64,000 bases of DNA, taken from an uncultured archaeon. Lineage in GTDB: Archaea; Halobacteriota; Methanosarcinia; Methanosarcinales; Methanoperedenaceae. The notes beneath the pieces are model-generated. The model was not told the origin of the DNA. It saw only the letters and a program-made list of their open reading frames with translations, and ran no database searches. This document shows, piece after piece, positions 1,445 to 16,641 of this stretch; the stretch's first letter is position 1; each line of letters opens with the position of its first letter. Location of the stretch: assembly GCA_902386135.1 (NCBI GenBank), contig CABMIB010000037.1, positions 1-64,000 on the forward strand, in the 5' to 3' direction. The position numbers were made by a program, and so were the translations under genes.

Positions 1445-1449
1445 ATTAT

Positions 1450-1842: not shown

Positions 1843-1922
1843 CTTTATCAGATAAATATTTTAGTTCCCTTCCGGTCAGATTGATAACCGATATGATGCC
1901 TCTGATCAGATTATTTAAGGCC

Positions 1923-4778
1923 TTATTCGATATATATCGCAGGTCTCATAGGGGATGCGAAACGGCTTTTCCCCTGGGGGTCGTACTCAGGTGCATCCGC
2001 GCTATATATCTCTATACTGCACCCTACAGCCTGGCTTAAGAAATCCCTGGCTTCGTTTAAGGCAGAAGTCTCATCAAACTCCACCTCAAGCAGTGAATTC
2101 ATCAGTTCAGGCTCCATTCCCTGGATATCGGTAATTACCTTTTGAGCGAATTTGGGTATTTCCTTTGCCTGCCCTCTCATTGCAGGGTCGCTCATAAGCG
2201 CGTTCATAAGGGTTTTCATATCAAGGTTGTTCTCTTTTTTAAGTTTTATGGCTTTCCTCAACACCATTTTTTTCCATGATGCGGATGTATACAGGATTAT
2301 CCTTTTTGGTTTTATCTTAATAAGCCTGATGATCTCTTCCATATCCCTGAGCGTATTGCTCGTTATCTCTTCTGCAAGCTCGGCGCTCCTGTCAATAAGA
2401 GCCGGGTCAGCCTTCGGGAATTCTGCCAGGGATATAAAATTCCCGCCCATTTCTTCCTCTATCTCCTCGCATATGTGAGGTGTAAATGGCGCCATTAACC
2501 TGACCCAGGTGCCCAGTATCTGTCTTCGCGCAGCGCCGCCCCCCCTGCGTTCGTACCATTTTATATCGTTCATAAGCAGGTAGAAGGCGTTCTGGACCGC
2601 TCTTCTTGTCTGTATTTTATCAAGGGCCTCGGTGGCCTCCTGTATCCTGTACTGTAATTTGCTCAGCATCCACCTGTCGATCAGTTTTAATCCGCCTGCG
2701 TTCTCTGACCTGATGATATCGTATGCTATTTTATAGAACCTCTCAACCTGTTTCCTTGTGGCATCAACATCCGCTTTCCTCCAGTCGGCATCCTGGACAT
2801 GCTCTGCCGTGCTCAGGATATAGAGGCGTGTGATATCAGCGCCGTACTCTTTTACCGCGGATTTCAAAGTGAGCAGGGGTCCCTTGGATTTGCTCATCTT
2901 TTGCCCTTCAAGCGAAACAAACCCGTTGATGGCTATGGCGCGGGGCCAGTATTTTTCAGGGAATATCGCAACATGGTGGAAGAGGAAGAACAAAAGATGA
3001 TTGGGGATCAAGTCCTTTCCGGACGAGCGCAGGTCAACCGGATACCAGTACTCAAAATCCTTCCTTGTCCTTTTAATGAGGTCGATATCCATCCCGGTTT
3101 TTGACGCAGCGGCTTCAGGCGCGCCCTTACCCAGCAGGTAGTAATCAAAGAAATCTTCTTTTAATTGTTCGGGCTTGATCTTGTCAAGGTATTTAGCAAG
3201 GATATAATAGCTCATGTATATTGTTGAGTCACCGAGCGATTCGATCATCCATTCAGGGTCCCAGGGAAGCCTTGTCCCGAGCCCTTTGCGCCGCGCGCAG
3301 GCTTTATCCTTCAGCCAGTCCACCTTGTTCTCAAAATCCACCCTTAGCTCAGGCGGGATTATCTGCATCATTTCAAGACATTTGTAGACAAGCGCTTTCC
3401 ATGCCGGATCCGAGTAATTCAAAAACCACTGGTTCTCGACCATCTTTATGACACATGTGGCTCCGCACCTGCATATCACGGGCTGTTCGCTGAACTCATA
3501 GAAAACATCCGCCACCCCCTCGGAAATAAGGTCATGCGTCAGCACGTCTTTGATCTTGGAGACGGCCATGCCTGCATATTTACCCGTGGTCTCGGTGAGC
3601 ACGCCGCCGTGGAATTCACGCCTGTACACGAACTTGGTGGCCTCTTCCGCCTTGGGGTCGTTCTGGTCTTTCACCTTCAGTTCGTTGACAGCATCTACTG
3701 CCGGGTATTTCCCGTATTCAGGTACTTTAATTAGAGATATCAGTTGTATTGTGGAAACGTCTTCCGTGATGCCGTATTCCGTTAAGTCCGCACCCTTTAG
3801 ATCGCGAAGAGCAAGGTAATCGTATGGCGCATGTGCCGGTACGCTCATGACGATGCCGCTTCCGTTCGCCGGGCTTACAAATGAGGCGGGCAGTATCGGA
3901 ACGAGAGAATCAGTGACCGGGTTTTTCACTTTTTTACCTATCAGTTCGCCGGCATCGGCATCTTCCAGGAATTCCACCTTCTTATCCGTGAATTTAAGCT
4001 TCTCATACGCCTCTTTGCTGACAACCCAGGTCTCGTCGTTGACTTTTATCCTTACATGATGGTTCTTCGGGTTTACCCACAGGTTCGTGACCCCGAACAC
4101 GGTCTCAGGGCGCAGCGTTGCGCAGGGAAGGATATCGTCGTTGAGTTTGAATTTTATCAGGGTATATTCAATTATGGTGGCATCCTCTCCCCTCAGGATA
4201 TCGTGGTCTTCGACAGGATTCTGGTCGTTCGGGCACCATCTGACGGGATGCGCGCCTTTTACCACCTTGTCTTTTGCATGGAGAAGGTTGAACTGCCATG
4301 TTATGAACTTCTGGTAATGGGGGTCTGTGGTAGTGAATCTTCTGCGCCAGTCGATCGAGAAACCGATGCTTTTCATGGCAGCCTCCGCTTCTTTGCTGAA
4401 ATATTCCACGATCTGCTCAGGTGTCTGGATGGTCTTCAGGATATCAAGAGGTATTCCGTGAAGCTGGTTATACACCCTTATGGTCTCAGGGTCTTTTTTC
4501 TGGATCTGTTCCGCGAGTCCCACTATCGGCGTCCCAGTGGCGTGGAACCCCATCGGGAACAGGACGTTGCAGCCCAGCATCCGTTTGTACCGCGCAATTA
4601 CATCGCCGATGGTGAATGTCCTGGTATGACCTGCATGAAGGTTGCCGTTTAAATAAGGGTAAGGGATTGTTATGAAGAATTTTTCCCTCTCATCAGGCTC
4701 AGGCTGGAATATCCTGGTTTCCTGCCATTTGCGCTGCCACTTTTCCTCTATTTCGTGCGGGTTGTAACGTTCTTTCAT
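1923..4778 (-). CDS. leuS: Leucyl-tRNA synthetase, archaeal type
   Basis: At 951 residues this matches the length of archaeal/eukaryal cytosolic LeuRS. The class I signature HAGH is at about residues 48-51 within a YPYLNGNLHAGHTRTF context, and KMSKS is at about 626-630. A large CP1 editing domain sits between them, with a threonine-rich segment and the ATLRPETVFGVTNLWVNP editing-site motif. An anticodon-binding domain (RWMLSKLQYRIQEATEAL onward) and a C-terminal domain follow. The enzyme charges tRNA-Leu and edits mischarged products in the cytoplasm. It stands alone on the minus strand, and its start lies only about 70 bp from the integrase start, so the mobile element is inserted just upstream of this essential gene. 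Confidence 0.97.
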   Translation of the reverse strand: MKERYNPHEIEEKWQRKWQETRIFQPEPDEREKFFITIPYPYLNGNLHAGHTRTFTIGDVIARYKRMLGCNVLFPMGFHATGTPIVGLAEQIQKKDPETIRVYNQLHGIPLDILKTIQTPEQIVEYFSKEAEAAMKSIGFSIDWRRRFTTTDPHYQKFITWQFNLLHAKDKVVKGAHPVRWCPNDQNPVEDHDILRGEDATIIEYTLIKFKLNDDILPCATLRPETVFGVTNLWVNPKNHHVRIKVNDETWVVSKEAYEKLKFTDKKVEFLEDADAGELIGKKVKNPVTDSLVPILPASFVSPANGSGIVMSVPAHAPYDYLALRDLKGADLTEYGITEDVSTIQLISLIKVPEYGKYPAVDAVNELKVKDQNDPKAEEATKFVYRREFHGGVLTETTGKYAGMAVSKIKDVLTHDLISEGVADVFYEFSEQPVICRCGATCVIKMVENQWFLNYSDPAWKALVYKCLEMMQIIPPELRVDFENKVDWLKDKACARRKGLGTRLPWDPEWMIESLGDSTIYMSYYILAKYLDKIKPEQLKEDFFDYYLLGKGAPEAAASKTGMDIDLIKRTRKDFEYWYPVDLRSSGKDLIPNHLLFFLFHHVAIFPEKYWPRAIAINGFVSLEGQKMSKSKGPLLTLKSAVKEYGADITRLYILSTAEHVQDADWRKADVDATRKQVERFYKIAYDIIRSENAGGLKLIDRWMLSKLQYRIQEATEALDKIQTRRAVQNAFYLLMNDIKWYERRGGGAARRQILGTWVRLMAPFTPHICEEIEEEMGGNFISLAEFPKADPALIDRSAELAEEITSNTLRDMEEIIRLIKIKPKRIILYTSASWKKMVLRKAIKLKKENNLDMKTLMNALMSDPAMRGQAKEIPKFAQKVITDIQGMEPELMNSLLEVEFDETSALNEARDFLSQAVGCSIEIYSADAPEYDPQGKSRFASPMRPAIYIE

Positions 4779-4847
4779 TCACACGTTGCACTACCTGATA
4801 GGAACATAACCGATTGTTTTATTACTAATTACGTTCATATTTAAGTT

Positions 4848-5936
4848 TTGGTGATTGTTATGAGTCGTGCGCCTCCAGCACCTAACAACAAAGTGATAAC
4901 TGATAAGCTTTACGAAGCATGGCTTAAAAGCCTGAGTGAAAAGACAGCATCGAGATACAGATACGGACTTATCGCATATTGTGAGCATACCGGGAAGACT
5001 TGCAGCGCATTGATTAAAGAGGCTCACGAGGATTATATTAACCGTGTGGCTCCCTGGGAGTTAAGGCACATCAAGGCGTTTGAAGGGTTCATACAGAGCA
5101 TCAAAGGCGATCCTGAATTATCCAACTGGACAAAGTTGGGCTTCATCAATGCAGTGAGGCACTTCTATAGGTTTAATAAAATTCCAGTAGAAGGACTAAG
5201 TAAAGCGAATATTCCCGCAATGGCAACAGAGCGATACCTGGATTTACCCGGATTGAAGTTAGATGACATACGGAAGGCTGTATTAAGCTGCGGAGTGGAT
5301 GAGAAATTAACTAAAGCTCTGATACTTACGTTCTTATCATCAGGCCAAGCACAGGCAGAAGTTCAGCATCTCCAAGGAAGACATTTGAAAAATATAGTTA
5401 ATAATGTGGCTGTCGTGAATATGACAAGAGGCAAAACCAACAGGCGATACACTTTCTTTATCGGCTCTGAGGCATTAACCGCTATCCACGAATACAAAGA
5501 CAAGATCGGAGATAATGATTTCGTATTCACTCAAAAGACGAAGGATAAGCCTTTAAACGACACTTACATCGGAACAATCTTTAAGCGGTTGGCTTCAAAG
5601 CTGGGGTGGGAGCGGTCATATTTCCAGCCCCATAGATTCAGGCATTATTTTAAATCTCAATTGAGCGGCTCAATGGATAACACTTTTATTGAGTATTTGT
5701 TGGGTCATAAGCTCCCTGGTGTAGAATCAAATTATTTCTTAGGGAATCAAGAGAAGATGCTGGAGCAATATGTTAAAAATCAGGATAAGCTAACTATATT
5801 CACGGATGCGGAGACTTTACAAAAACAATACGACGAACTCAAACAAGAGAACAGCACGTTAAAGTCAATGTTTACTCCTGATATGATTCAAAAAATGATT
5901 GACGAAAGAGTATCGCAATTACTGAAAAATAAATAA
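4848..5936 (+). CDS. Tyrosine recombinase (integrase) of the mobile element
   Basis: A 362-residue site-specific recombinase. The C-terminal catalytic half shows the box II pattern HRFRHYF, then LLGHK and a nucleophile candidate in ESNYF. A likely beta-hairpin lysine lies in TRGKTNRRYTF. At the place of the usual first catalytic Arg (TGLRxxE in most families) it has SGQAQAEV, so that residue may have shifted or is not recognisable by eye. The N-terminal part (about 20-130) resembles a SAM-like core-binding domain, and the last 35 residues form a predicted coiled coil. A second in-frame Met at codon 5 is an alternative start. It defines the left end of the integrated element. No tRNA gene is visible next to it. 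Confidence 0.85.
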   Translation: MVIVMSRAPPAPNNKVITDKLYEAWLKSLSEKTASRYRYGLIAYCEHTGKTCSALIKEAHEDYINRVAPWELRHIKAFEGFIQSIKGDPELSNWTKLGFINAVRHFYRFNKIPVEGLSKANIPAMATERYLDLPGLKLDDIRKAVLSCGVDEKLTKALILTFLSSGQAQAEVQHLQGRHLKNIVNNVAVVNMTRGKTNRRYTFFIGSEALTAIHEYKDKIGDNDFVFTQKTKDKPLNDTYIGTIFKRLASKLGWERSYFQPHRFRHYFKSQLSGSMDNTFIEYLLGHKLPGVESNYFLGNQEKMLEQYVKNQDKLTIFTDAETLQKQYDELKQENSTLKSMFTPDMIQKMIDERVSQLLKNK

Positions 5937-5974
5937 TCTTTCTCTTCTTGCTTTATCTCTTTTTGTTCAAAGCT

Positions 5975-6019
5975 ATGATTGAGGCGAGGGTAAAGGAATT
6001 AATGAAAAAAGGTCAATAG
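5975..6019 (+). pseudogene. Remnant resembling an integrase C-terminus
   Basis: Fifteen codons (MIEARVKELMKKGQ, then stop) closely resemble the last codons of the intact integrase upstream (MIDERVSQLLKNK, then stop). The nucleotide match is also visible: both begin ATGATTGA and share GTA, AATTA and TGAAAAA blocks in register. The reading frame stays open upstream but loses similarity. This could be the tail of an older integrase, left by a previous insertion or gene replacement, or one half of an attachment site. The stop overlaps the end of the convergent gene by a few bases. Confidence 0.45.
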
Positions 6020-6588
6020 AATGAGTTTAAACGCTGCAGTCTATACTGAATATGGTCAGATGTTAAAGCAAAAGCAATATCTTCTTTTAACCCTGGCACC
6101 ATATTGGACATTAACTGAGTAGCGAGCCGTCTAACAGATTCAATCTTAGCGGGTTCTACTCCAAAGTTTTGGACGGTCGGCTTAATATCCCTTTTTTCAA
6201 GGTCCTTCTTCATTTTTTCAAGTTCGTCTTTGCTTCCTTTTTCCATGCACAAACTAATGAAATGCTCATATGCCTGCGGTACACGGGATTTTTCATCACC
6301 ACACATCACATCTATGAGCTTTAAAACATCTTGCGGATACTCATAGTTATTTACTATGGTAAAAAATATCTCATTATCTGTAATCCCGATACTCTTAACA
6401 ACCTTTGAATCGATTTTAATATAGGGTTTAATAGTCCCATCCGATAACAAGCGTCTTATATTATAAAGAATCGGTTGATGCTGCTTATTTAATTTTTTGA
6501 GTTCTGCGAGATTTGTTTCCTTATTTGTTTCCTCATTTTTCTTTATACAATTAAGGATATTTTGTTTATGGGTTTCTTTATCTTCCAT
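6013..6588 (-). CDS. Hypothetical element protein, possible winged-helix regulator
   Basis: A 191-residue protein not recognised as a named family. Residues about 5-55 (helix, helix, LYNIRRLLSDGTIKPY) look like a winged helix-turn-helix ending in a wing. The middle is a charged helical region (SKDELEKMKKDLEKRD) and the C-terminus is helical. It is transcribed divergently from the AbrB-like gene across a 111-bp gap that carries a direct repeat, as expected for a regulator controlling a lysogeny-type or copy-number switch; that role is inference. It is convergent with the integrase gene. Confidence 0.6.
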   Translation of the reverse strand: MEDKETHKQNILNCIKKNEETNKETNLAELKKLNKQHQPILYNIRRLLSDGTIKPYIKIDSKVVKSIGITDNEIFFTIVNNYEYPQDVLKLIDVMCGDEKSRVPQAYEHFISLCMEKGSKDELEKMKKDLEKRDIKPTVQNFGVEPAKIESVRRLATQLMSNMVPGLKEDIAFALTSDHIQYRLQRLNSFY

Positions 6589-6603
6589 GAATTATACCTC
6601 ATT

Positions 6604-6672
6604 TTTTACTTTAGTACAAAATATTGCTTAAAAAAGCTATATAGTTTTACTTTGTATTAAAACTATTGTTTA
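6604..6672. promoter_or_regulatory. Divergent promoter with a direct repeat
   Basis: Two similar blocks about 27 bp long begin TTTTACTTT at 6604 and 6645, 41 bp apart. After a short variable stretch both continue AAAA(C)TATTG(C/T)TTA. An 8-bp palindrome CTATATAG lies between them at about 6637-6644. The region separates the minus-strand regulator (start 6588) from the plus-strand AbrB-like gene (start 6700). It probably holds both promoters and operator copies; which protein binds is not known. Confidence 0.5.
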
Positions 6673-6699
6673 GGTTACTAACCGAAGAAGGTTACGACT

Positions 6700-6891
6700 A
6701 TGATAAGAAAAATACAAACAAACAGGGATTTGTCTTTTGTGTTTATCCCGAAAGCGTTTATGGAGCTTTTAGGGTTACAGAAAGGGCAGAAAGTAGATGT
6801 CAGGGTAGTAGATGAGAAAATCGTAATTGCGCCAGTCCTTGAAAACCGCCAAGTTACCAGAACTGACGCAAGCCAGCCAACACCCAGCTAA
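6700..6891 (+). CDS. AbrB/SpoVT-type DNA-binding protein
   Basis: A 63-residue protein with the swapped-hairpin AbrB fold: RKIQTNRDLSFVFIPKAFMELLGLQKGQ, then VDVRVVDEKIVIAP. The usual pattern is a conserved strand, a PK(A/E) turn, a short helix with LGL.KGQ.V and a final strand. Such proteins are dimeric transcription regulators or antitoxins. No toxin gene follows directly; the next gene is a 40-residue protein of unknown role. It is probably an element-encoded repressor acting at the divergent promoter upstream. Confidence 0.8.
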   Translation: MIRKIQTNRDLSFVFIPKAFMELLGLQKGQKVDVRVVDEKIVIAPVLENRQVTRTDASQPTPS

Positions 6892-6906
6892 GGGAGTGAT
6901 GCCAGC

Positions 6907-7029
6907 ATGTCAGATATAAGCGCATTTCTAAGTAAAAACCCTTCCATCCCTCAAATTCTTGAATTTGTAGAATCGGAGGCGCAGCGCATAGCATCAGACC
7001 GCAAAAGGGCAGCGGAGGGTTCGTCATGA
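6907..7029 (+). CDS. Small element protein, 40 residues
   Basis: A short open frame beginning MSDISAFLSKNPSIPQ and ending AAEGSS. A GGGAGTGAT ribosome binding site lies 7-8 nt before the ATG, and the stop overlaps the next start as ATGA. These two signs support translation even though the product is tiny. It is helical and charged in the second half (about residues 18-36). No family is recognised. It is part of the tightly packed chain leading to the primase gene. Confidence 0.55.
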   Translation: MSDISAFLSKNPSIPQILEFVESEAQRIASDRKRAAEGSS

Positions 7030-7358
7030 CCGATACCAAAGATAAATCGGTTGTCGTCCTGACGGAAGGAAAATACGGTCTTATTCTGCTTGATGCCCGT
7101 AACTGGTGCATAGCCGAGTTAAACGATAGTAGGGCTTCAATAGACATCAATACGAAGGACTTTAACCCCAACTCTTACACTTACCATGCCAACATCAGAC
7201 AGGCCATAATTGAGATGGCCGGCAGGATGACTAAAGATAAGATAAGAAAGTCCTGCGAGAGTAAACCACTGGAACTTCGAGAACTTATCGAAATCATCAA
7301 GGGAAACGACCAGTGGATGAGAAAAGCGATTATGGGAAGGGCTGGGGTGGAAAAATGA
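7026..7358 (+). CDS. Hypothetical element protein
   Basis: A 110-residue protein of unknown family. The N-terminal half is strand-rich (KSVVVLTEGKYGLILLDARNWCIAEL) and the rest is helical (ANIRQAIIEMAGRMTKDKIRK, ELRELIEIIKGNDQWMRKAI). Start and stop overlap the neighbouring genes as ATGA on both sides, so it is translationally coupled within the replication operon. A role close to DNA replication is suggested by position only. Confidence 0.6.
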   Translation: MTDTKDKSVVVLTEGKYGLILLDARNWCIAELNDSRASIDINTKDFNPNSYTYHANIRQAIIEMAGRMTKDKIRKSCESKPLELRELIEIIKGNDQWMRKAIMGRAGVEK

Positions 7359-7573
7359 CAAAAAATGAATGGAATACAGCCCCCACATCTGAAGGTCTTG
7401 AGACCTCAACAGGAAAGGGGGCTATTAGTTCTAAGATTGTTTCTCATGGTTTAAATAGGTTTTGCCATAACCATGAAAAACCCAATAGCTTACAATTCTG
7501 TTGTTCTGGGATAAGTCCATGCTGCTCCTGCGATGCTCCTCGGCAACCATTGTGCAGTTTGGTGGGGCGGTGA
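7355..7573 (+). CDS. Small cysteine-rich element protein
   Basis: A 72-residue product starting at the ATG that overlaps the previous stop (ATGA). The C-terminal part is rich in Cys and His: a CHNH motif, a CC pair, CCSC and a final Cys. This suggests a small metal-binding module, but the spacing does not match a zinc finger that I recognise. The start further upstream in the same frame would overlap the previous gene by 46 nt and is less likely. Confidence 0.5.
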   Translation: MTKNEWNTAPTSEGLETSTGKGAISSKIVSHGLNRFCHNHEKPNSLQFCCSGISPCCSCDAPRQPLCSLVGR

Positions 7574-7576
7574 GTT

Positions 7577-7780
7577 ATGGTAGTTTTAATTTGCGCCAAA
7601 TGCGGTAAAAAGTGCCGTGGACATTTAAATAAGAGTGGCAATTGGGTAACTGCTTGGAAAGTCCTGGCAGGGCATATCATAGCTTCCCGTGACCATATAC
7701 GCAAGAAATGGGCTAAAGCATTCCTGCTATCATCAAATGTAGGAACAGGATTATGGGAAGATAGGGGGCGGTTGAGATGA
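7577..7780 (+). CDS. Small zinc-finger-like element protein
   Basis: A 67-residue basic protein. The start CAKCGKKCRGH gives a CxxC pair followed by Cys and His, and further His residues (GHIIASRDH) could complete a zinc site. The basic C-terminus (HIRKKWAKAF, WEDRGRLR) fits nucleic acid binding. Its stop overlaps the start of the primase gene as ATGA, so it is likely co-translated with the replication protein and may assist it; that is inference. Confidence 0.55.
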   Translation: MVVLICAKCGKKCRGHLNKSGNWVTAWKVLAGHIIASRDHIRKKWAKAFLLSSNVGTGLWEDRGRLR

Positions 7781-10239
7781 GTACCGAGGACATACTCACG
7801 GCAGCCAAAGAATACACAGCTAAAGGCTGGGTGGTTCATCCTCTATCAAGTCCGAAGGATAACGGCAACAGTCCAGGAAAAAGACCGTTATTATCAGCAT
7901 GGCAGGAATTAACGCATACACCCGAAGATATAGGCGCACACATTAAAAAAGGCGGCAATATCGGGTTAGTGTGTGGTTGTGTTAGCGGAGTTATTGTTTT
8001 AGACTTCGATAGCATGTTATTTTATAAAACTATATTCCCTGACGGCAGTAATACGCTTGAAAGCCAGAGAATTGAAGGACGAAGGCACGTATATCTAAAA
8101 TATCACCCTTCGCTTACATCGAAATCAGATAAGCATTTAAAAATCGAATTGCAGAGTGATAAAAGGAATCTTGTATTACCCCCGTCCATTCATGCGGAAG
8201 GTCAAACATACGACTGGATCAATCCTGAAACACCAATAAGAGAACTTACGGAAGATGAAATAACGAGGATAAATGGATTATTCCAATTATCCGCTAGTCT
8301 CCAAGCAAAAATAAAGGACTGTGGGCGATGTTTCGAGAGGATTTTAGAGCTTAAATCTGACATGACTACTGGGGGAGATAGAAGCGCATTATTAGGACTT
8401 TTCACGGAGCTTAAACTTCATGAGGCCACCGATGATGAACTGTTCTTAATGGCTAAGTTGATTTTTAAGGAGAAATTCGATAAGAAAGAGACTGAAACCA
8501 GTTTAAGATATATCGACATTGGTAGACCTCACAAATGTGAATCGTTACGGCAGGACTTCGGCAAATACATTAAATTTGACGGATTATGTGATAACTGCAA
8601 CCGATTTAACAGGCAAAATAAAGGAAAAAAGAAAAGTAAAGAATCATTAAAAATAGAATTACCTCTGATACCACAGGAACAAATAGAACAAAATCCGATA
8701 ACAATACATGAATTGTTAGATGTCTATAAAAAGTATCTTTACATTGAAGAAAACGAAAGCATAACCATACCACTGGCTGAGACCATAAGCAATTTTGCAC
8801 CTATAGAACCTGATATAATGGGAATTATAGGGGCGAGTGGTTCCAGCAAAACCGAAGTTATTAGGGCGTTGGGAGAATTGGAGAACCAGTATATCTATCC
8901 TGTAAGCTCCATAACCGGGCATACTCTTGTAAGTGGTTTTGAAGATAATGTAGATTTAGCACCGTCTTTGAGGGGTAGATTATTAACAATCAAAGACTTT
9001 ACCACATTATTAGCAAAAAAGAAAGACGAAGTGAGCGAAATATTTGCCGATCTTCGAGAACTCACAGATGGACATATAGGAAAGGACTTTGGCAGCGGAG
9101 TTAAGAAGCACTATACAGGTATTCATACTTCTATACTTTTTGGCTGTACTAATGCCATTGAAAAATATAATTCGATGTTTTCATTATTGGGGCAGAGGAT
9201 ATTATTTTTCAGACCTCGTAGCGACAAAAAGAAAGCAATGTACCAAGCTATGAAGAACGCGGGTAAAGAATCCGCATTTAGGGATGAGTTGCACAAAAAA
9301 ACAATGCAGTTTATATATCATATCTTGAATACTAAAAAAGATAGATTGACCAACCTAAGCCACATACCCGAAGTATATGGCGAAATGATAGGAGAATTGG
9401 TTTATTTCTTGGCGATTGTGAGGACGCATATAGACAGGGATTTTAAAGGCGAAATGGCAACATTACCAGAACCAGAATATCCCACACGATTAGCTAAAAC
9501 AATGTGTAAGTTGGTAGATGCACACGCGGTTATACATGACCGTGAACCGATAGTGGATGATCTGAGGATAGCGTATAGGTTAGTCTTGGATAATATCCCC
9601 ACGGATCGGTTAAGGATATTAAACACGCTACTTGATGGGAACGAGAGGACTACATCAGAAGTTCAAGAAGCTGCAAGGGTATCTAACGCTTTCGCGAGGA
9701 GAATATTAGAGGACTTGAAAGCTTTAGAAGTGATTGAATATTTTAGTGGGGGAAAAGGTAAACCAGATATTTGGCAATTTACTGATGAAAAATATAGAGA
9801 AATTTTAACCCAAATTCAGGATTTTAGTAAACATGAAAATAAGAATAGTTCGCCTGATGCTGAACAACCCCAGGGTGCTATTCGCTTACCGGGGGATACT
9901 GAAACTATTAAAAAGGTACTCCAGAAATTAAAAAATAAAAATAAAGGAGAGAAAGAGGAGAGTCCCATAAAAGAGGAGAGTCACCACCTAAGCGAATACC
10001 ACCCCGGACTCACAGAGTCGGCAAGTAATGGTTTAAAAACAGACCACTTAGAAAATCAGGAGATCATAGATTATATAAAATCTGTAAAAGAATGGAATGT
10101 CAAACCTGATTCAGAGAGCAATCGTAACTACAGGGTCACAAACGGTAGTCCTGAGATAGCCAGAAAGTTTAACATACCTACAGAAAAAGCCTATAAAATC
10201 TTTAAGGACTATTGCAAGGCGCGGGGCTGGGGATCATGA
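7777..10239 (+). CDS. Primase-polymerase / P-loop ATPase replication protein
   Basis: An 820-residue replication initiator or primase-helicase. The N-terminal domain has the bifunctional primase-polymerase (Prim-Pol) signature: GWVVHPL, metal-binding DFD at about residues 76-78, and GRRHVYLKY near 101-109. A cysteine cluster (HKCESLR to CDNCNRF, about 250-275) may bind zinc or an iron-sulfur cluster. A P-loop ATPase follows with Walker A GASGSSKT (about 352-359), RGRLLTIKDF as a Walker B candidate and SILFGCTN as a sensor. A winged helix (about 620-680) and a charged, low-complexity tail with a last helical segment complete it. This architecture is typical of plasmids and viruses of archaea. 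The iteron array lies just downstream. Confidence 0.85.
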   Translation: MSTEDILTAAKEYTAKGWVVHPLSSPKDNGNSPGKRPLLSAWQELTHTPEDIGAHIKKGGNIGLVCGCVSGVIVLDFDSMLFYKTIFPDGSNTLESQRIEGRRHVYLKYHPSLTSKSDKHLKIELQSDKRNLVLPPSIHAEGQTYDWINPETPIRELTEDEITRINGLFQLSASLQAKIKDCGRCFERILELKSDMTTGGDRSALLGLFTELKLHEATDDELFLMAKLIFKEKFDKKETETSLRYIDIGRPHKCESLRQDFGKYIKFDGLCDNCNRFNRQNKGKKKSKESLKIELPLIPQEQIEQNPITIHELLDVYKKYLYIEENESITIPLAETISNFAPIEPDIMGIIGASGSSKTEVIRALGELENQYIYPVSSITGHTLVSGFEDNVDLAPSLRGRLLTIKDFTTLLAKKKDEVSEIFADLRELTDGHIGKDFGSGVKKHYTGIHTSILFGCTNAIEKYNSMFSLLGQRILFFRPRSDKKKAMYQAMKNAGKESAFRDELHKKTMQFIYHILNTKKDRLTNLSHIPEVYGEMIGELVYFLAIVRTHIDRDFKGEMATLPEPEYPTRLAKTMCKLVDAHAVIHDREPIVDDLRIAYRLVLDNIPTDRLRILNTLLDGNERTTSEVQEAARVSNAFARRILEDLKALEVIEYFSGGKGKPDIWQFTDEKYREILTQIQDFSKHENKNSSPDAEQPQGAIRLPGDTETIKKVLQKLKNKNKGEKEESPIKEESHHLSEYHPGLTESASNGLKTDHLENQEIIDYIKSVKEWNVKPDSESNRNYRVTNGSPEIARKFNIPTEKAYKIFKDYCKARGWGS

Positions 10240-10394
10240 CCGCATGTCCTAATAAATGCCTGGACTGCAAGTCCTCTATCCGCAAAGTTACCGGGCAATT
10301 CTGCAAGCAGTGGGGGCTATTGTGTATAGAAGTAAGTGAGTGGTGCGGTGTGGGAGGTATGAGATGGGTGAAAATGTCGGCTTCTCACAAATAA
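10236..10394 (+). CDS. Small cysteine-rich protein, possible zinc ribbon
   Basis: A 52-residue product starting at an ATG overlapping the primase stop (ATGA). Motif CPNKCLDC followed by Cys residues at QFCKQ, LLCIEV and WCGVG gives up to six cysteines, typical of a tiny zinc-binding protein. No family is recognised. An in-frame start 24 nt upstream exists, but the overlapping ATG fits the pattern of the operon better. Confidence 0.5.
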   Translation: MTACPNKCLDCKSSIRKVTGQFCKQWGLLCIEVSEWCGVGGMRWVKMSASHK

Positions 10395-10449
10395 CTATGA
10401 GTAATAATATGTCATAATTCGAGGGTAAAATGTGGACTGAAATAATACC

Positions 10450-10541
10450 GTTTTACCTCTGTTATAGATTCGTTTTACCTGCGTTTTAAAAGTGTTTTAG
10501 CCCTGTTTTAGTGTGTTTTAACGTGTTTTAAAAGTGTTTTA
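10450..10541 (+). repeat. Helically phased GTTTTA iteron array
   Basis: Eight exact copies of GTTTTA start at 10450, 10472, 10483, 10494, 10505, 10515, 10525 and 10536, and a variant GTTATA at 10461 fills the only gap. Spacing is 10 or 11 bp throughout, one helical turn, so all sites face the same side of the DNA. On the other strand these are phased TAAAAC tracts, which would also bend the DNA. The array sits between the end of the replication operon and the next regulator gene. A replication origin or a cooperative regulator binding region is the likely function. Confidence 0.75.
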
Positions 10542-10618
10542 ATGCACTGTTTCAGAGTTCATGAGGATATTCAAGACCTTCATAAGATATAAGTACTTTG
10601 ACTATATATTATAGGCAT

Positions 10619-11026
10619 ATGTTAGGAAATACTAATAATAAATCGAAAATTGAAACGAAAGTGAGCTATGAAGAGTTTGAACAGTTCTATCTGGAACATC
10701 CTGGGGAATCGCCACAGACATTATCCGAGGTGTTCAATGTATCACCAAGATGTATCTATTACAAGCTGAGGAGATTTAACCGACTCCATAATGATAAATT
10801 CGTAGATGCATCTTCCCTACTACTTCAAGCATTCAGGGACGGAAGAAAAGAAGGTTACGATGAAGGAGTTTTAATTGGTCTCGGCATAGGGGATTTATTA
10901 GGGGAATTTTTGAAATCAAATGGTATAGGCATTACTGATTTTATCGCTAAATTCTCAGAGTATGTGCATGGAACTTATGCAAAAAAAGAACAGGTGATCG
11001 CAAATGACAGAACAAGCACAGCCTGA
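10619..11026 (+). CDS. Helix-turn-helix protein of the element
   Basis: A 135-residue protein. Residues about 30-52 (QTLSEVFNVSPRCIYYKLRR) form a clear helix-turn-helix. After it comes a helical stretch with a glycine-rich segment (EGYDEGVLIGLGIGDLLGEFL). The ATG at 10619 follows an AT-rich TATATATTATA tract and is preferred over a TTG 21 nt earlier. It is the first gene after the iteron array, so it may bind the array or control replication; this is inference. Its end overlaps the next gene by 23 nt. Confidence 0.65.
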   Translation: MLGNTNNKSKIETKVSYEEFEQFYLEHPGESPQTLSEVFNVSPRCIYYKLRRFNRLHNDKFVDASSLLLQAFRDGRKEGYDEGVLIGLGIGDLLGEFLKSNGIGITDFIAKFSEYVHGTYAKKEQVIANDRTSTA

Positions 11027-11729
11027 AAATCTCCCAGCACCGCAAGAACAGCCCGCACCATCTAATCCTAACATTGGTGATTTTTTCAAGAATTTCTCCC
11101 TAAAAGATATTTTGGACTACATCCAGGAGAACCCAGAAGCCATAGACGAGTACCTCCCGGACATTAAGAGAGACCTTGCAGGTCTTGGAACAATAGAGCG
11201 CGGTATTGCAGATATGCTATTGCGGTCAAAAGCACCCAAATTATGGGAGAGGATACACAATGATAACCCTGTAAGCAGCCCCAAAAATGACAACGAAGAT
11301 TCACGGACGAAAGATAACGATAATGGGAACAGTCCTGAAGTAACATATTCCCCGGAACAACTCCGAGATGATGTGATCGAATTGTTTGAATCGCCAGAAG
11401 AATACAGCGAAAATGAGATAGCAGGTATTCTTGATGAGGAATATTTTGAGAAATACGGGAAGCATGTTCACCAATCACAAGTATCCAGGATCATCAGAAA
11501 ATATGAACAAAATGGAAATGGGGATAGAGATGGGGAAGATTACCCGGACAACCACGACCACGATAAACCGAAACCCAAGAAAATAGTTGATGCGATAGCC
11601 TCCGAAGTAGTTAAGAAACTACAAAGCCAGGGGATAACTCAACCTGCTCCTACTCTTGCTCATGCACCACAGCAACCAAAAACAGGACGTAACGGATTAA
11701 TAACGCGATTTGTCAGATGGTTTATTTAA
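11004..11729 (+). CDS. HTH domain protein with disordered linkers
   Basis: A 241-residue protein. The first 25 residues are Pro/Gln/Ala rich. A helical region follows (about 27-85, FFKNFSLKDILDYIQENP). A charged, probably disordered stretch (NDNEDSRTKDNDNGNS) precedes a DNA-binding domain at about 112-170, which contains SENEIAGILDEEYFEKYGK and VHQSQVSRIIRKYEQNG, a winged-helix or ParB-like HTH pattern. The C-terminus is again low complexity. It could be a partition or regulatory protein of the element, but no ATPase partner (ParA) is present. Confidence 0.6.
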   Translation: MTEQAQPENLPAPQEQPAPSNPNIGDFFKNFSLKDILDYIQENPEAIDEYLPDIKRDLAGLGTIERGIADMLLRSKAPKLWERIHNDNPVSSPKNDNEDSRTKDNDNGNSPEVTYSPEQLRDDVIELFESPEEYSENEIAGILDEEYFEKYGKHVHQSQVSRIIRKYEQNGNGDRDGEDYPDNHDHDKPKPKKIVDAIASEVVKKLQSQGITQPAPTLAHAPQQPKTGRNGLITRFVRWFI

Positions 11730-11748
11730 TTTTAAGGATGTGATCAAT

Positions 11749-12057
11749 ATGAGAACGATGAGAAAACCAAGACATAGAGGTACGAAATCAGAACCAAAAC
11801 CAGAACCAGAAAAAGATAAAGACAAGTTACTTACTATACTGTTAAAGACCAAAGTTTCAGATGTAGTAAATCTGATGGATAACTTCAAGATTAGAGAGTT
11901 CGCTAAACAATATCCAGAAAAGACATTCAGTGACTTGGGTGAAGAGATTTTAACAGCATGGGTAGAAGTAGTTAAAAAACATCCTGAAGAATGGGGAGTC
12001 ACAAAAGAGCAAATCGAGAAACTTAAGAAGGATGAGATAAAAACAACTAACATTTGA
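11749..12057 (+). CDS. Hypothetical basic element protein
   Basis: A 102-residue protein starting MRTMRKPRHRGTKSE. The first 30 residues are Arg/Lys/Pro rich and look disordered or nucleic-acid binding; the rest is helical (TKVSDVVNLMDNFKIREFAKQYPE, LGEEILTAWVEVVKKHPEEWG). The ATG at 11749 is preceded by GGATGTGATC, one mismatch from the perfect anti-16S sequence, and this decides the start over a TTG 39 nt earlier. No family is recognised. Confidence 0.6.
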   Translation: MRTMRKPRHRGTKSEPKPEPEKDKDKLLTILLKTKVSDVVNLMDNFKIREFAKQYPEKTFSDLGEEILTAWVEVVKKHPEEWGVTKEQIEKLKKDEIKTTNI

Positions 12058-12253
12058 ACATGGTCTAATCTTGTTTGAGTCGTGTTCAAATCTTGATAAT
12101 TCATTCTTCCGATACCTTTTTTCACTATTAAATGGGGGATATTCCAGTAGGATTTTTCTAAACCAGTGTACGAACATGTACAATCTGACCATTGGTAGTA
12201 TTCCAATAGTAATCTATAAGTAGGAATAAACTCATACTTTTAGCCGTGATAAC

Positions 12254-12451
12254 ATGCCACGAAGAACTATGGAAATGGTAAAAGTTAGCATTTCGATGCC
12301 TGTATGGGTACAAAACGAGATTGATAGCTTATCTGAAGAAATGAACACATCCCGAAGCGATGTAATTTCGGAAATCTTGGAGTACGTAATTGAAAATGAG
12401 GATGTACTTAACGATATTTTCCCGATGGAAGATGAAGAACCAGGGGAGTAG
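12254..12451 (+). CDS. Ribbon-helix-helix (CopG-like) regulator
   Basis: A 65-residue protein with the ribbon-helix-helix pattern: strand EMVKVSISMPVWVQNEID, helix SLSEEMNTSRSDVISEILEYVIE. The MPxWxxxxIDxLSEEMxxSRSDVI signature is typical of CopG/NikR-like DNA-binding domains. An acidic tail follows. It opens the module that contains the beta-rich proteins and probably controls it, or acts as an antitoxin. The 196 bp upstream (12058-12253) hold no gene and probably contain its promoter. Confidence 0.8.
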   Translation: MPRRTMEMVKVSISMPVWVQNEIDSLSEEMNTSRSDVISEILEYVIENEDVLNDIFPMEDEEPGE

Positions 12452-12465
12452 CAAGACGGGATAAT

Positions 12466-12756
12466 ATGAAGCCACATAGTCATACATATAATTTTGAAGA
12501 ATTTGCCGATATGATAGCTTCCGATCCAGAATTAGGGGAATTATTTTATGATCCTGAACCTGAATCTCTTTATGATCCTGAGCCTCTGGTCTTAGGAGAA
12601 ATACCACAATCTTGGTTTATTGCCATGAGACGGGGAATAGCAGAGCGTTCAGATGTTCGTTACCCAGGTCTTTGGGCATGGCGTATCTGGAAAGCCTTAA
12701 GCCCAGAGGAGCGGGAAGAAATCAAACTTATATCCTTACATGGTGGGCGATTCTAA
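12466..12756 (+). CDS. Hypothetical acidic element protein
   Basis: A 96-residue protein with a repeated acidic-proline motif (FYDPEPESLYDPEP, about residues 26-40) and a Trp/Arg-rich helical half (RYPGLWAWRIWKALSPEEREEIKL). No family is recognised. It starts 14 nt after the CopG-like gene, and its stop TAA overlaps the next start (TAATG), so it is part of an operon with the two beta-rich proteins downstream. Confidence 0.6.
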   Translation: MKPHSHTYNFEEFADMIASDPELGELFYDPEPESLYDPEPLVLGEIPQSWFIAMRRGIAERSDVRYPGLWAWRIWKALSPEEREEIKLISLHGGRF

Positions 12757-13307
12757 TGGGATTTTGGGATATATTTTTCGGAAGCTCACCAAAGGCACAG
12801 CAGAGCCAGTCACAGCCTTGCAGACCTTCCCAGGCAGCCCCTTTGATTCAAGATACTAACCGTATCCTTACACAGCAGGAAGCCCTTTTAAGAAGGCTTA
12901 ATGAAGGTCTTGTAAACAGTCCTCAGCATGGGGATATCACAAGCGAATATACCACACGAAACAATTACAGCGCGTTTAGAATAGGTAAGTCATGGTTCTT
13001 CAATCAGAATATCACATTTGCCGGTACTGTTATGGATATCCAGCTTACCAATATCAATGCAATGGTTTATAATAAAATCAGCTTGAGCTTTGACGATGCG
13101 ACCGCGAAGGATTTTGACATCCGAGGATACCCGGAAGCATCCAGTTCAGCATATGAGGATTTAGATAATAAAACCGCCGATACAAATCAATTCGTTTTGG
13201 TTGCTACGGATTATAAAATGCCTCCGAGTAGCGTTTTATTAATTCACTTTGCGAATTTTACAGTAGGTAAGAAATGCTCAATTCGAATACAGGGTGATGA
13301 GATATGA
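12756..13307 (+). CDS. Beta-rich element protein, possible virion or surface component
   Basis: A 183-residue product starting at the ATG that overlaps the previous stop. Residues 1-60 are helical and Gln-rich (MGFWDIFFGSS, then LTQQEALLRRLNEGLV), resembling a coiled stem. From about 75 to the end alternating hydrophobic strands suggest a beta sandwich (YSAFRIGKSWFFNQNITFAG, MDIQLTNINAMVYNKISLSF). No signal peptide is seen. This layout is common in phage tail or decoration proteins, but I recognise no specific family. Stop and next start overlap as ATGA. Confidence 0.5.
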   Translation: MGFWDIFFGSSPKAQQSQSQPCRPSQAAPLIQDTNRILTQQEALLRRLNEGLVNSPQHGDITSEYTTRNNYSAFRIGKSWFFNQNITFAGTVMDIQLTNINAMVYNKISLSFDDATAKDFDIRGYPEASSSAYEDLDNKTADTNQFVLVATDYKMPPSSVLLIHFANFTVGKKCSIRIQGDEI

Positions 13308-14101
13308 AGATTACAGAAGTATTGAATGGCAGACAGGTATCACTCGACCAAGGGCATCAGCCCCAATTTTTAGTGGGGCTGGATAGCCAGAAGAACGCGA
13401 ACCCAGGTAAAGGTGATACATATTATGCCTATGATACAGGCAGGCAGCTTACCTGCTTCGTGAATGGTGTGTGGTCTGTAGTATCATCCCCTTCAACTAT
13501 TCGAACCGGGAATCATGAGGGAACAGTAACGAACTTCTTTAAAACCGCTGTAGTAGGCGCACCAGATGTTACCACATTAACTTCGAATCATGCGTTAAGC
13601 ATGGATCCAAATAGCGCGGGGGATTCAGTTGAATATTACACCGATGTTTTCTATACCCCGGATAATTTTACATTCTTAGCTTCATTCTTTATTTATGCCG
13701 TGAACTTGGGGTCAGCCGCGCCCAATGGTCATGAAGTGAGGATAGGTTTGCACGATAGGTTAGGGATAGATGGGAACGCCAGCGCCCAGGCTATGTTTAT
13801 GGTGAACTCTAATGATGGTCAATGGAAGTGCGTAACGTCGGATGGCGGGGGCGGGCATACCCAGGTAACGAACATCTCAGCGCCATCATTCCCAGGGAGT
13901 AGCTTCTCAGTGTACACTTCACCAGGTAATGGCTTTACTCTTGTTATATATACGATGAACGGGGTAATTGTGGCGGTACATACGAACATCTTATTACCTG
14001 TGGTCAATCTGGTGTCTGACAGCTATATAACTGCATTATCAGCGCCCACGGTCTTTGCTACGCTTCAAACCTCATTCATTGGATTAGATATTCTAACCTG
14101 A
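13304..14101 (+). CDS. Beta-rich element protein, possible receptor-binding or tail-tip protein
   Basis: A 265-residue protein of almost continuous predicted beta strands, rich in Gly, Asn, Ser and Thr. The first 65 residues contain GDTYYAYDTGRQLTCFVNGVW, a motif style seen in phage fibre and tail-tip head domains. The rest looks like a jelly-roll or lectin-like sandwich (EVRIGLHDRLGIDGNASAQAM, GFTLVIYTMNGVIVAVHTNI). No signal peptide or anchor is visible. It is translationally coupled to the previous beta-rich gene. A virion or cell-surface role is inference. Confidence 0.5.
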   Translation: MKITEVLNGRQVSLDQGHQPQFLVGLDSQKNANPGKGDTYYAYDTGRQLTCFVNGVWSVVSSPSTIRTGNHEGTVTNFFKTAVVGAPDVTTLTSNHALSMDPNSAGDSVEYYTDVFYTPDNFTFLASFFIYAVNLGSAAPNGHEVRIGLHDRLGIDGNASAQAMFMVNSNDGQWKCVTSDGGGGHTQVTNISAPSFPGSSFSVYTSPGNGFTLVIYTMNGVIVAVHTNILLPVVNLVSDSYITALSAPTVFATLQTSFIGLDILT

Positions 14102-14343
14102 TGTTTTATCTCATCCTTTAACCGTATAATTTCCAGTGGAACAACTGCCATATCCCATTTATTGGCATTACTGAGGCATTTAGTACGGCATAGAACAGCA
14201 CTACAGCATTACCTTACCGCATCCAATAGGCAAAGCTATATCTCCAAAAACTTATTGTGGGGGCAATTAAAATGTTAAAAATTTGAAGTAAAAAAAGAAG
14301 GTCAGAAAGTGATTTCGTACACTGAAATGGTAGGAGAATATAT

Positions 14344-14577
14344 ATGAACAGAATAATGATATTTGCTGGGTTCTTTATAATCCTTATAGGATTTGCGAAT
14401 TTTCAAAATTTTCAAAGCTTCGGCGGCATCGAAGGTCAGGTAATTGGCAGCACCGTTTTCTGGAATCTTGTGGTTTGGCTCGGATTTGGAATTATTGGAA
14501 TCGGAATTGGAAAGAGCGATAAAAATCATGGGGGTCATAACTCTGCGTTATCTCATGGAACAGAAGATTTACATTAA
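14344..14577 (+). CDS. Small membrane protein of the element
   Basis: A 77-residue protein with two hydrophobic segments, IMIFAGFFIILIGFANF (about 4-20) and FWNLVVWLGFGIIGIGIG (about 40-57), and a His/Lys-rich tail. GGTAGGAGA just before the ATG serves as ribosome binding site. Two-helix hydrophobic proteins of this size form the coat of spindle-shaped archaeal viruses, but they are also common as holin-like or hypothetical proteins, and there is no sequence match I can name. Confidence 0.55.
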   Translation: MNRIMIFAGFFIILIGFANFQNFQSFGGIEGQVIGSTVFWNLVVWLGFGIIGIGIGKSDKNHGGHNSALSHGTEDLH

Positions 14578-14710
14578 CCATTACTCAGTCGTTGCCAGAA
14601 CAGGCTTAAACATGCTCAGACATGGCTTAGAATGACTGAGGAGGGTATAAGGTCATGTTGTGGGGATGATCTCAGGGAATAGGTAGATTTACTTAAACCT
14701 GTGGTACAAC

Positions 14711-14782
14711 ATGGCTAAATGGATAGGGCTATCCGTGATAAGCGGGATTGTGGGGATTGTAGTCGGCAGGGTGATTTTATGA
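14711..14782 (+). CDS. 23-residue single-helix membrane peptide
   Basis: A minimal frame MAKWIGLSVISGIVGIVVGRVIL followed by TGA. It is almost entirely one transmembrane helix with an N-terminal Lys. The stop overlaps the start of the coiled-coil gene as ATGA, which supports real translation and coupling. Without that overlap it would not be called. Function unknown. Confidence 0.4.
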   Translation: MAKWIGLSVISGIVGIVVGRVIL

Positions 14783-15066
14783 CAAAAAAACCGAAAAGAA
14801 GAGTCGATAGCATTTCGACAGAGGAAGAACTCGAAAAATATGTAAGCGATCAAATAGATGAAATGAGTATTGATGAAGAACTAAAAGGAGATATGAAAAA
14901 ATCATATTCTCGATTGATAGATAAGTTAATAAATTCGTTTGACTTGAAAAAAGAAATAGTCCTTTCACAGTTTGATTCACAATTAGAAAGAAGTGATAAC
15001 TTGAAAAGACTTTATGCAATTGAGGCACGGCTTGATGCGATTGAGGCATGGATGAAGGCGCATTAA
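14779..15066 (+). CDS. Coiled-coil element protein
   Basis: A 95-residue charged protein, MTKKPKRRVDSISTEEELEKY to the C-terminal LYAIEARLDAIEAWMKAH, which is a regular heptad pattern. The ATG at 14779 overlaps the stop of the tiny membrane peptide and is preferred over an in-frame ATG 60 nt upstream. It has no recognised family. It may pair with the membrane peptide. Confidence 0.55.
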   Translation: MTKKPKRRVDSISTEEELEKYVSDQIDEMSIDEELKGDMKKSYSRLIDKLINSFDLKKEIVLSQFDSQLERSDNLKRLYAIEARLDAIEAWMKAH

Positions 15067-15336
15067 AGGCGTTCTGAGCATAACCCCAGGGGAATAGGTA
15101 CAAACACCTTACCTTTTTATCAATCGCTGAAATAAAGCCTATTTGCGTAAGGCAGGATAGCCTTAGAATGAAGGGGATAGGGTTAAAGGCCATGAGTTCA
15201 TGAGGTCATGTCCTGGGAGATGTAGGACTTTAACGTAGCCGTAACGGAAAACGAAAGTAGTATCCATCAAAGACCCATAAGAAAGCCTCTCATATCGCAT
15301 TTATGGGGTTTGACTTCATAAAAATATAGATAAAAG

Positions 15337-15666
15337 TTAAGCCGCAGCAAGTCTTTTTTCAAGATCAGCAATCTTAAGTTCTAAAGCCGTTATCTTTTCG
15401 ATTACCGGGATACGCTTTTCCAGGGAATCAAACTTTACGTTCATTTCTGTTCTCAGGCCGTCTATTTCTTTTCCGACGCTGGTTATTTCTGTCTTTGTCT
15501 CATTTCTCAGGCTGCCTATTTCTATTTTCATTTCGTTTCTGAGGCTGTCTATCCGTTCATTCGTTGAATCTATCCGGGCATTGATTGCCTTAAGTTCGCC
15601 TTTTATCTCATTGAGTTCGGGCATCAACACTTGTTTTAACCAGGACGGTACTTTTTCCACAGGCAT
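15337..15666 (-). CDS. Coiled-coil protein
   Basis: A 109-residue protein that is almost entirely a long coiled coil, with repeated units of the type IDSLRNEMKIEIGSLRNETK. A short N-terminal segment (VPSWLKQVLMPELNEIKGEL) precedes it. Such proteins occur in many archaeal genomes with no assigned role. It is transcribed against the element genes, and it is unclear whether it belongs to the element or to the chromosome, so it marks the uncertain right border. Confidence 0.6.
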   Translation of the reverse strand: MPVEKVPSWLKQVLMPELNEIKGELKAINARIDSTNERIDSLRNEMKIEIGSLRNETKTEITSVGKEIDGLRTEMNVKFDSLEKRIPVIEKITALELKIADLEKRLAAA

Positions 15667-16010
15667 AATCTATACTTGATGTATGTTCTATTTAACTTTA
15701 AGCTGCATGGAGTTAGAGGTAAAAGGCTCTATTTCTATCCGCGATCCTGTCAGGAACAACTTTATAAATATAAGAGATTAATATAAAAAAGATTTTTACT
15801 TTCTATAAATACCCCGATTGATTTTTGACAATGAATATCTATAGTTCAGAAATTAGTAATCATACAAAATATATTACTCCCTGATAGTAAAAAGATTTAA
15901 CGGTTTGGGATTCGCTTGTGAGTATGATGGGGAATATTATACTTAGAACCTATCTGAAAATTGTATTGCCTATCCGATTTCTTCTTTTTATAAAAATTCG
16001 CACTTTTATT
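15667..16010. other. AT-rich gap near the right border of the element
   Basis: About 340 bp without a supportable gene. The sequence is AT-rich, with runs such as TTTATAAATATAAGAG and a GATTTTTACTTT tract. I looked for a copy of the sequence left of the integrase (4779-4850) that would be an attachment repeat. I found only an 8-bp CCTGATAG match (about 4796 and 15882) and a 9-bp inverted match (TTACTAATT), both within chance. The right end of the element is therefore not located. Confidence 0.4.
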
Positions 16011-16351
16011 TTATTTTTCCATATCGCTCAGAACTTCTTCTATGAGAGGCTTCAGATTCGGTATGTCCTCTTCCAGCACAAGCCACACCTTCTCAAGGCT
16101 AACCCTGAAATAAAGATGAGTGACCTTATCTCTCATTCCTGCTATGTCTTTGGGATTTGAGGATATTTTTTACGGATATCATCTGGTATGTGTTTAACAG
16201 CTTCTCCTATAATCTCGATGCACCGCAAAACGGCAAGATATGTCCTTTTATCAATTATAAACTCCTCATAGCTCATATCACTTACAAAATCTTCTGCAAG
16301 TTCCATATGCTCGATGATATCTTTAATATACAGCGACACGTCCCGCTTCAT
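16011..16351 (-). pseudogene. HEPN (DUF86-like) toxin, frameshifted
   Basis: The open frame gives 69 residues of a HEPN-domain protein (MKRDVSLYIKDIIEHMELAED to DDIRKKYPQIPKT) and then stops. The missing half continues in another frame: KDIAGMRDKVTHLYF, EKVWLVLEEDIPNLKPLIEEVL, stop at 16011. The junction at about 16150 lacks the tryptophan codon usual in PQIPWKDIAGMRD, consistent with a small deletion of 4 bases or 1 base. The RX4H RNase motif (RDKVTH) lies in the lost part, so the truncated product would be inactive. The start overlaps the MNT gene stop as ATGA. A sequencing error is possible. Confidence 0.75.
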
Positions 16352-16641
16352 ACATATACTACTTCCTTCAGAATCCTCTCTTTTAATTCATACCTGATAT
16401 CTTCCTTAGGCACAACATCCACCTTTGTCTCTATGAGATCGGCTAAGAAATTTTCCAGATTCACTAATTTCAAAAGACTTATTGGCTTTTCAAACTCAAC
16501 CAGAACATCCACATCGCTCTTTTTTTTCTGTTCGCCTCTCACATAAGAGCCGAAGATTCCAATTTCTCTTACACCATATTTCTTTCTTATGGCTGGCTTT
16601 TGCTTTTTCAATATCTCTTTTATCTCTTCAAGCGTTCTCAT
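16348..16641 (-). CDS. MNT-type nucleotidyltransferase antitoxin
   Basis: A 97-residue minimal nucleotidyltransferase with GSYVRGEQKKKSDVDVLVEF at about residues 30-50, the GSxxxGxxxxxSDxDhhV active-site signature. In HEPN/MNT systems this enzyme modifies and silences the HEPN RNase. It is encoded first and overlaps the HEPN gene by 4 nt. With the HEPN partner frameshifted, the pair is probably no longer a working toxin system. Confidence 0.85.
   Translation of the reverse strand: MRTLEEIKEILKKQKPAIRKKYGVREIGIFGSYVRGEQKKKSDVDVLVEFEKPISLLKLVNLENFLADLIETKVDVVPKEDIRYELKERILKEVVYV

Follow-up and report, generated by a model that had tools for sequence, protein, structure and literature searches.

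The stretch of DNA analysed here (hereafter the window) comprises 64,000 nucleotides, positions 1 to 64,000 of contig CABMIB010000037.1 (assembly GCA_902386135.1), from a Candidatus Methanoperedens genome. It holds an integrated element of 11,086 bp, measured core to core, directly 5' of the leucyl-tRNA synthetase gene (leuS). Besides a tyrosine integrase (g01), the element carries DNA-binding regulators, a replication protein with a Prim-Pol domain and an ATPase region (g08), a phased array of short repeats and a late module of three genes (g14, g15 and g16), among which g15 is a candidate virion decoration protein (Table 1). All its frames are open and many neighbouring genes overlap by one to a few bases. 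The chain of tiny overlapping genes reported in a preliminary description, made from the letters of the window, is indeed present, stop/start overlaps being read directly at seven positions (7026, 7355, 7777, 10236, 11004, 12756 and 13304).

An integrated element with defined ends upstream of leuS

The ends of the element were fixed by comparison with Candidatus M. nitroreducens Mnv1 (genome G002, which holds NZ_FZMP01000204.1), the closest relative among the genomes searched (leuS protein 95% identical). In this genome, a single unbroken stretch aligns with window positions 1107-4804 and 15876-16029, which overlap on it by about 15 bp. The breakpoint given by this empty site places both ends at an 8-bp direct repeat, CCTGATAG, the letters common to both attachment (att) sites. 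The 11-kb integrated element proposed earlier is thus confirmed by the empty site and the att repeat, while its right end, formerly placed at 15700, lies at about 15,887, some 190 bp further. The element is a complete integrative unit, site-specifically integrated between defined att sites. Regarding the possibility that the region is ordinary chromosome, it is ruled out by the absence of the element from this sister genome and by the short spacing between leuS and the neighbouring membrane-protein gene in most relatives carrying both on one contig, where tens of bases separate them.

In a few relatives this gap reaches about 600 to 1,800 bp, and in genome G006 it extends to 7.6 kb and is filled by a different element, whose integrase is related to that of the window. 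The integrase family has therefore used the site 5' of leuS in at least two species. The G006 element is flanked on either side by inverted arms (CAATTGTTTTATTACTAA / TAGTAATAAAACAATTTG), in the same arrangement as in the window, and the core matching that of the window is CTTATTAG. Despite the common integrase family, leuS site and att architecture, the G006 element differs by a D5-like primase/helicase replication module and has no g14-g16. The elements of genomes G010 and G028, of this integrase family too, likewise have another replication module and lack g14-g16. A tRNA attachment site was also considered and discarded, as none is found nearby and ARAGORN reports a single tRNA in the window, at 61 kb. 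As read from the sequence, integration has cut leuS off from its native upstream region, and leuS may now be served by a replacement promoter, a TATA-like motif (CTTAAATAT) that lies on its strand within the end of the element.

Immediately to the right of attR, MNT/HepT-type toxin-antitoxin genes are found at 16011-16641. The HepT frame is apparently broken, with 16142-16351 continued at 16011-16136 in a different frame; the Mnv1 site lacks part of it.

Table 1. Genes and sites of the element and its left border, in window coordinates (aa, amino acids; HTH, helix-turn-helix)
Feature	Position	Strand	Evidence or remark
leuS	1923-4778	-	gene adjoining attL
attL core CCTGATAG	4794-4801	.	breakpoint against the empty site of G002:C11; 15-23 bp upstream of the leuS start codon
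attL arm CGATTGTTTTATTACTAATTACG	4811-4833	.	read directly; partly inverted-repeated at attR
g01, tyrosine integrase, 358 aa	4860-5936	+	Pfam PF00589, E=1e-15; 73-77% identical integrase at the G006 leuS site
g02, divergent gene, possible regulator, 191 aa	6013-6588	-	weak matches only
g03, AbrB/MazE-like DNA-binding protein	6700-6891	+	PF04014, E=3e-8
g04-g07, four tiny chained/overlapping genes, 40, 110, 72 and 67 aa	6907-7780	+	overlaps read directly
g08, Prim-Pol + ATPase replication protein, 820 aa	7777-10239	+	PF09250, E=2e-21
g09, Cys-rich, 52 aa	10236-10394	+	open reading frame and overlap
Phased array of YGTTTTA, 8 copies	10449-10541	+	candidate iteron, operator or centromere-like site
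g10, HTH DNA-binding protein	10619-11026	+	45-49% identical homologue in the G010 element, in which a Pfam HTH is seen
g11, 241 aa	11004-11729	+	possible HTH region at 117-163 (weak)
g12, 102 aa	11749-12057	+	no significant database match
g13, ribbon-helix-helix regulator	12254-12451	+	PHROG CopG/Arc-like, E=3.5e-4; BrnA-like, E=3e-5
g14, 96 aa	12466-12756	+	C-terminal half corresponds to a domain that also lies within 582-584-aa proteins of two further Methanoperedens contigs
g15, helix and all-beta sandwich, candidate capsid-decoration protein (cement/turret-type), 183 aa	12756-13307	+	homologues in L098 and L099; AlphaFold2 model and Foldseek
g16, beta-rich, candidate surface/receptor-binding partner of g15, 265 aa	13304-14101	+	homologue adjoining the g15 homologue in L098
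g17, small membrane protein with two hydrophobic segments, 77 aa	14344-14577	+	read directly; no database match
42-nt non-coding motif around CAGGGAATAGGTAGATTT	14665-14706	+	93% over 42 nt against the distal end of the G010 element
g18, coiled-coil-like, 95 aa	14779-15066	+	open reading frame; no significant match
g19, coiled coil, 109 aa (15337-15666), plus upstream DNA	15337-15777	-	89% DNA identity to G002:C29 and many other loci
attR core CCTGATAG	15880-15887	.	breakpoint against the empty site

Replication region, phased array and the plasmid alternative

Profile searches bore out the integrase, the Prim-Pol/ATPase replication protein and the DNA-binding regulators (g03 and g13) recognised in the preliminary description. 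In g08, a Walker-type ATPase region following the Prim-Pol domain is conserved in three other Methanoperedens elements, and relatives 44-49% identical occur in other elements of the genus. By tblastn, g08 also matches the 9.7-kb plasmid of Sulfolobus neozealandicus (NC_006906, E=7e-5), over the N-terminal Prim-Pol domain only (about 31% over 141 aa). Alignment of the g01 integrase against IMG/VR returned no match. Among the early genes, g02 occupies a position analogous to that of a divergent 258-aa winged-helix-like gene in genome G010, relatives of g03 and g04 are found beside an integrase of genome G028, and Cys residues are present in g06 and g07.

Between g09 and g10, seven of the eight YGTTTTA copies are spaced by 10-11 bp, about one helical turn, and none of 5000 simulations of intergenic sequence reached eight copies. 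This array, where a possible origin had been suggested, may function as a replication origin, as an operator for copy control or in partition, with the HTH protein g10 as its possible ligand. The G010 element, whose integrase (like that of the G028 element) belongs to the same family, contains an array of different sequence and same period at a similar distance upstream of its g10 homologue, and this array too exceeds all 1000 shuffles. It is plausible, from this comparison, that array and HTH protein have changed together between the two elements, as a cognate pair. Both also have in common a 42-nt non-coding motif, located in the G010 element at L096 10221-10260; among 34 genomes, its exact core CAGGGAATAGGTAGATTT was found only in these two integrase-related elements, which come from different species.

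A replication module combined with an integrase is what an autonomous integrative plasmid would contain, and such a plasmid could have borrowed a surface-protein cassette (e.g., for virus exclusion or a change of the cell surface) and spread without virions. Prim-Pol replication proteins do occur on small archaeal plasmids, as illustrated by the match of g08 to NC_006906, the phased repeats and the HTH gene resemble plasmid iteron or partition loci, and the related G010 element, of about 5 kb, has integrase, regulators and g10 module and is devoid of g14-g16. The window element shares small size and the Prim-Pol domain with NC_006906, from which it differs by integrating at leuS and carrying a virion-like module. 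Against the plasmid explanation, g15 lacks a signal peptide and looks like a decoration protein of virions, and no Pfam or NCBIfam match to a relaxase, VirB4 or FtsK-type ATPase, the genes of integrative conjugative elements, was obtained. We regard the plasmid explanation as unlikely, while giving it real weight.

The late module and the predicted fold of g15

By sequence, g15 and g16 have no convincing relative in phage records, IMG/VR or the PDB, and a g15 profile search across 238 genomes of the class found it in three Methanoperedens genomes only. In one of the two related contigs (L098, JAQUNZ010000040.1), the g14 domain ends a 584-aa protein and, beyond four intervening genes, homologues of g15 (36%, E=3e-22) and g16 (27% over 175 aa, E=1e-7) lie side by side. 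In the other (L099, from Mnv1), the g14 domain (47% over 53 aa, E=9e-13) is followed by a 135-aa protein, a small Cys-rich protein and the g15 homologue. The 135-aa protein shares 46% identity over 96 aa with a protein of the viral contig L105, which comes there directly after the genes for the terminase large subunit, portal, head morphogenesis and head protease. The g14-g15 module is therefore found beside tailed-virus-like structural genes.

The AlphaFold2 model of g15 (mean predicted local distance difference test score, pLDDT, of 73, and about 75-91 over residues 71-183) has a helix at its N terminus and an all-beta sandwich after it. Foldseek matched this model to the Helicobacter phage KHP40 cement protein (7dou; target template-modelling (TM) score 0.60, root-mean-square deviation 3.5 A) and to a turret chain of HFTV1, an archaeal virus (8qpg; target TM 0.57, 3.8 A), and the best named matches in a viral library were mainly tailed-phage structural or tail proteins. 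HFTV1 turrets are structures on the capsid surface, built from base and head protein (PMC12494034). The predicted fold is suggestive, not proof, of a virion decoration protein, and the g14-g16 module as a whole looks virion-related.

Several observations weigh against this assignment. Normalised to the full g15 query, the TM-scores reach a modest 0.39-0.44, and Foldseek also matched the sandwich to carbohydrate-binding modules and further cellular proteins, in some cases at better E-values. The model of g16 reached a mean pLDDT of 31 and was not used. Moreover, L098 and L099 are contig fragments whose viral status is unproven, and L098 also encodes secreted surface proteins, so that the cell surface, and not the virion, could be where the module acts.

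The kinship of the late genes with those of the larger contigs L098 and L099 also raises the idea of a tailed provirus reduced to a remnant by the loss of its head and packaging genes. The same genome does hold elements with a partial tailed-virus gene set. One of them (G000:C93, L066 5129-19668) combines an integrase, a ParB-like protein, a related Prim-Pol and a terminase large subunit divided between ATPase and nuclease-like open reading frames, and terminases related to the latter occur in G001:C1 and G003:C75; among the frames read, few of which were searched against profiles, neither a portal nor a capsid gene was noticed. Another (G000:C65, L152 about 3968-15840) has an integrase, a terminase large subunit, tape-measure-like and possible prohead-protease genes and an HTH gene in the small-terminase position, with no portal or capsid recognised. 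These elements show that partly equipped, tailed-virus-derived elements exist in the host. Nevertheless, the window element has no pseudogenes or broken frames; its tight overlaps, its intact att sites and the presence of a related integrase at this site in a second species favour an active compact element, making a remnant improbable. As a side observation in another genome, a 90-aa protein encoded downstream of a related Prim-Pol (L063, G024:C87, 5936-6208) has two hydrophobic segments with a polar loop between them, a layout like that of the small membrane capsid proteins of spindle-shaped viruses, and has no convincing profile match.

Toward the distal end, g19 lies inside the element, as stated previously, together with its upstream DNA; both are probably captured host DNA, judging from the many other loci in the genus at which this family is found. 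A stretch of about 57 bp upstream of g19 (15690-15748) recurs at many loci of the genus, with about 78-90% identity, and is maybe a shared promoter or a small repeat family.

A possible satellite-like element in a methane-oxidising archaeon

Searches of Pfam, PHROGs and NCBIfam yielded no terminase, portal, capsid, FtsK or conjugation family at the thresholds used, not every protein having been compared with every library, and the preliminary description holds in this respect. More specifically, no element protein matched a terminase large subunit in Pfam or PHROGs, PF03237 matching C93 and C65 and not the element, and no portal or HK97-type major capsid protein was recognised in the three libraries. 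Likewise, no RNA family was found in the non-coding stretches of the element. When its DNA was compared with 34 genomes in search of CRISPR spacers, only short or low-identity matches and the multi-locus 3' region were retrieved, with no spacer array demonstrated. A role in defence was rejected, PADLOC matches being only weak or to coiled coils.

Of the five proteins singled out earlier for profile searches and structure prediction, g15 has a predicted fold like that of virion decoration proteins, g14 and g16 belong to the same shared module, and g17 and g18 match nothing. The fold and the shared module shift the reading away from a pure plasmid. Another reading is a small autonomous virus with an unrecognised capsid. 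Its shell might, for instance, be built from g15, which has a beta-sandwich, or g17, with its two hydrophobic segments, might be a major capsid protein embedded in a membrane, in the manner of spindle-shaped viruses; small archaeal viruses that integrate are known. Yet the element has no packaging ATPase, nor any second ATPase gene of the kind looked for in spindle-shaped or membrane-containing viruses, g17 is without a family match, neither g17 nor g15 matches known capsid proteins in sequence, and g15 recurs beside tailed-virus-like genes. An autonomous virus is not supported, as no capsid or packaging gene appeared, and we consider it very improbable. Plasmid, satellite and small virus had all been envisaged at the outset; a satellite-like identity fits best, a pure plasmid being less favoured.

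The best single reading, ahead of plasmid, remnant and small virus and one that we hold tentatively, is hence that of a satellite-like integrative element, self-replicating and equipped with virion-surface genes, which would need the capsid of a helper. Its own replication gene and its lack of a complete capsid and packaging set accord with this. The integrase would recombine at the 8-bp core just upstream of leuS, a site established by the empty site, and the Prim-Pol/ATPase protein, judging from its family, would replicate the excised 11-kb circle. The phased array and g10 may serve as origin, copy-control or partition site. The late operon g14-g15-g16 would then produce proteins of the virion exterior, g15 through its predicted decoration-protein fold and g16 as its conserved neighbour. 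Packaging by a helper virus would be needed because the element is without capsid, portal and terminase, and helper particles might be decorated or retargeted by the element proteins, unless movement is particle-free. Two further points speak against the satellite-like reading: no helper is shown, C93 and C65 having no late gene in common with the element and not being claimed as such, and the element has no known cos/pac site or small terminase.

Like the phage satellites (P4-like, PICI/SaPI and PICMI), the window element is small and integrated, with a tyrosine integrase, its own primase-type replication, regulators and no full capsid and packaging set. It differs from them by its archaeal host, by having no identified helper and by having no recognised small terminase or packaging site, and it carries decoration-like proteins in place of the capsid-size redirectors described for SaPIs. 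With head-tailed archaeal viruses such as HFTV1 it shares the predicted fold of g15, like that of a turret chain (PDB 8QPG), but has no terminase, portal, major capsid or tail genes and is far below the size of tailed-virus genomes. Borgs are linear, reach 1.1 Mb and have long inverted terminal repeats, and the HMp plasmids measure 156 and 192 kb (PMC11208441, PMC9674854); the window element, at 11 kb and integrated, is not one of these very large extrachromosomal genomes. In our literature search, no description of small integrated Methanoperedens satellites was found, the elements described there being Borgs and large plasmids.

It is conceivable, if doubtful, that methane-oxidising archaea host a class of archaeal satellites that use 5' sites of the leuS type, replicate through Prim-Pol proteins and, with decoration proteins of their own, re-coat and retarget the capsids of helper viruses on which they otherwise depend. 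The element described here supplies exact ends, a conserved leuS-adjacent integration site and a small set of candidate virion proteins, and thereby enables a direct test of whether these archaea host capsid-borrowing satellites. Finally, the phased arrays preceding g10 genes are a compact candidate origin or partition locus, which would be useful if genetic tools are built for Methanoperedens.

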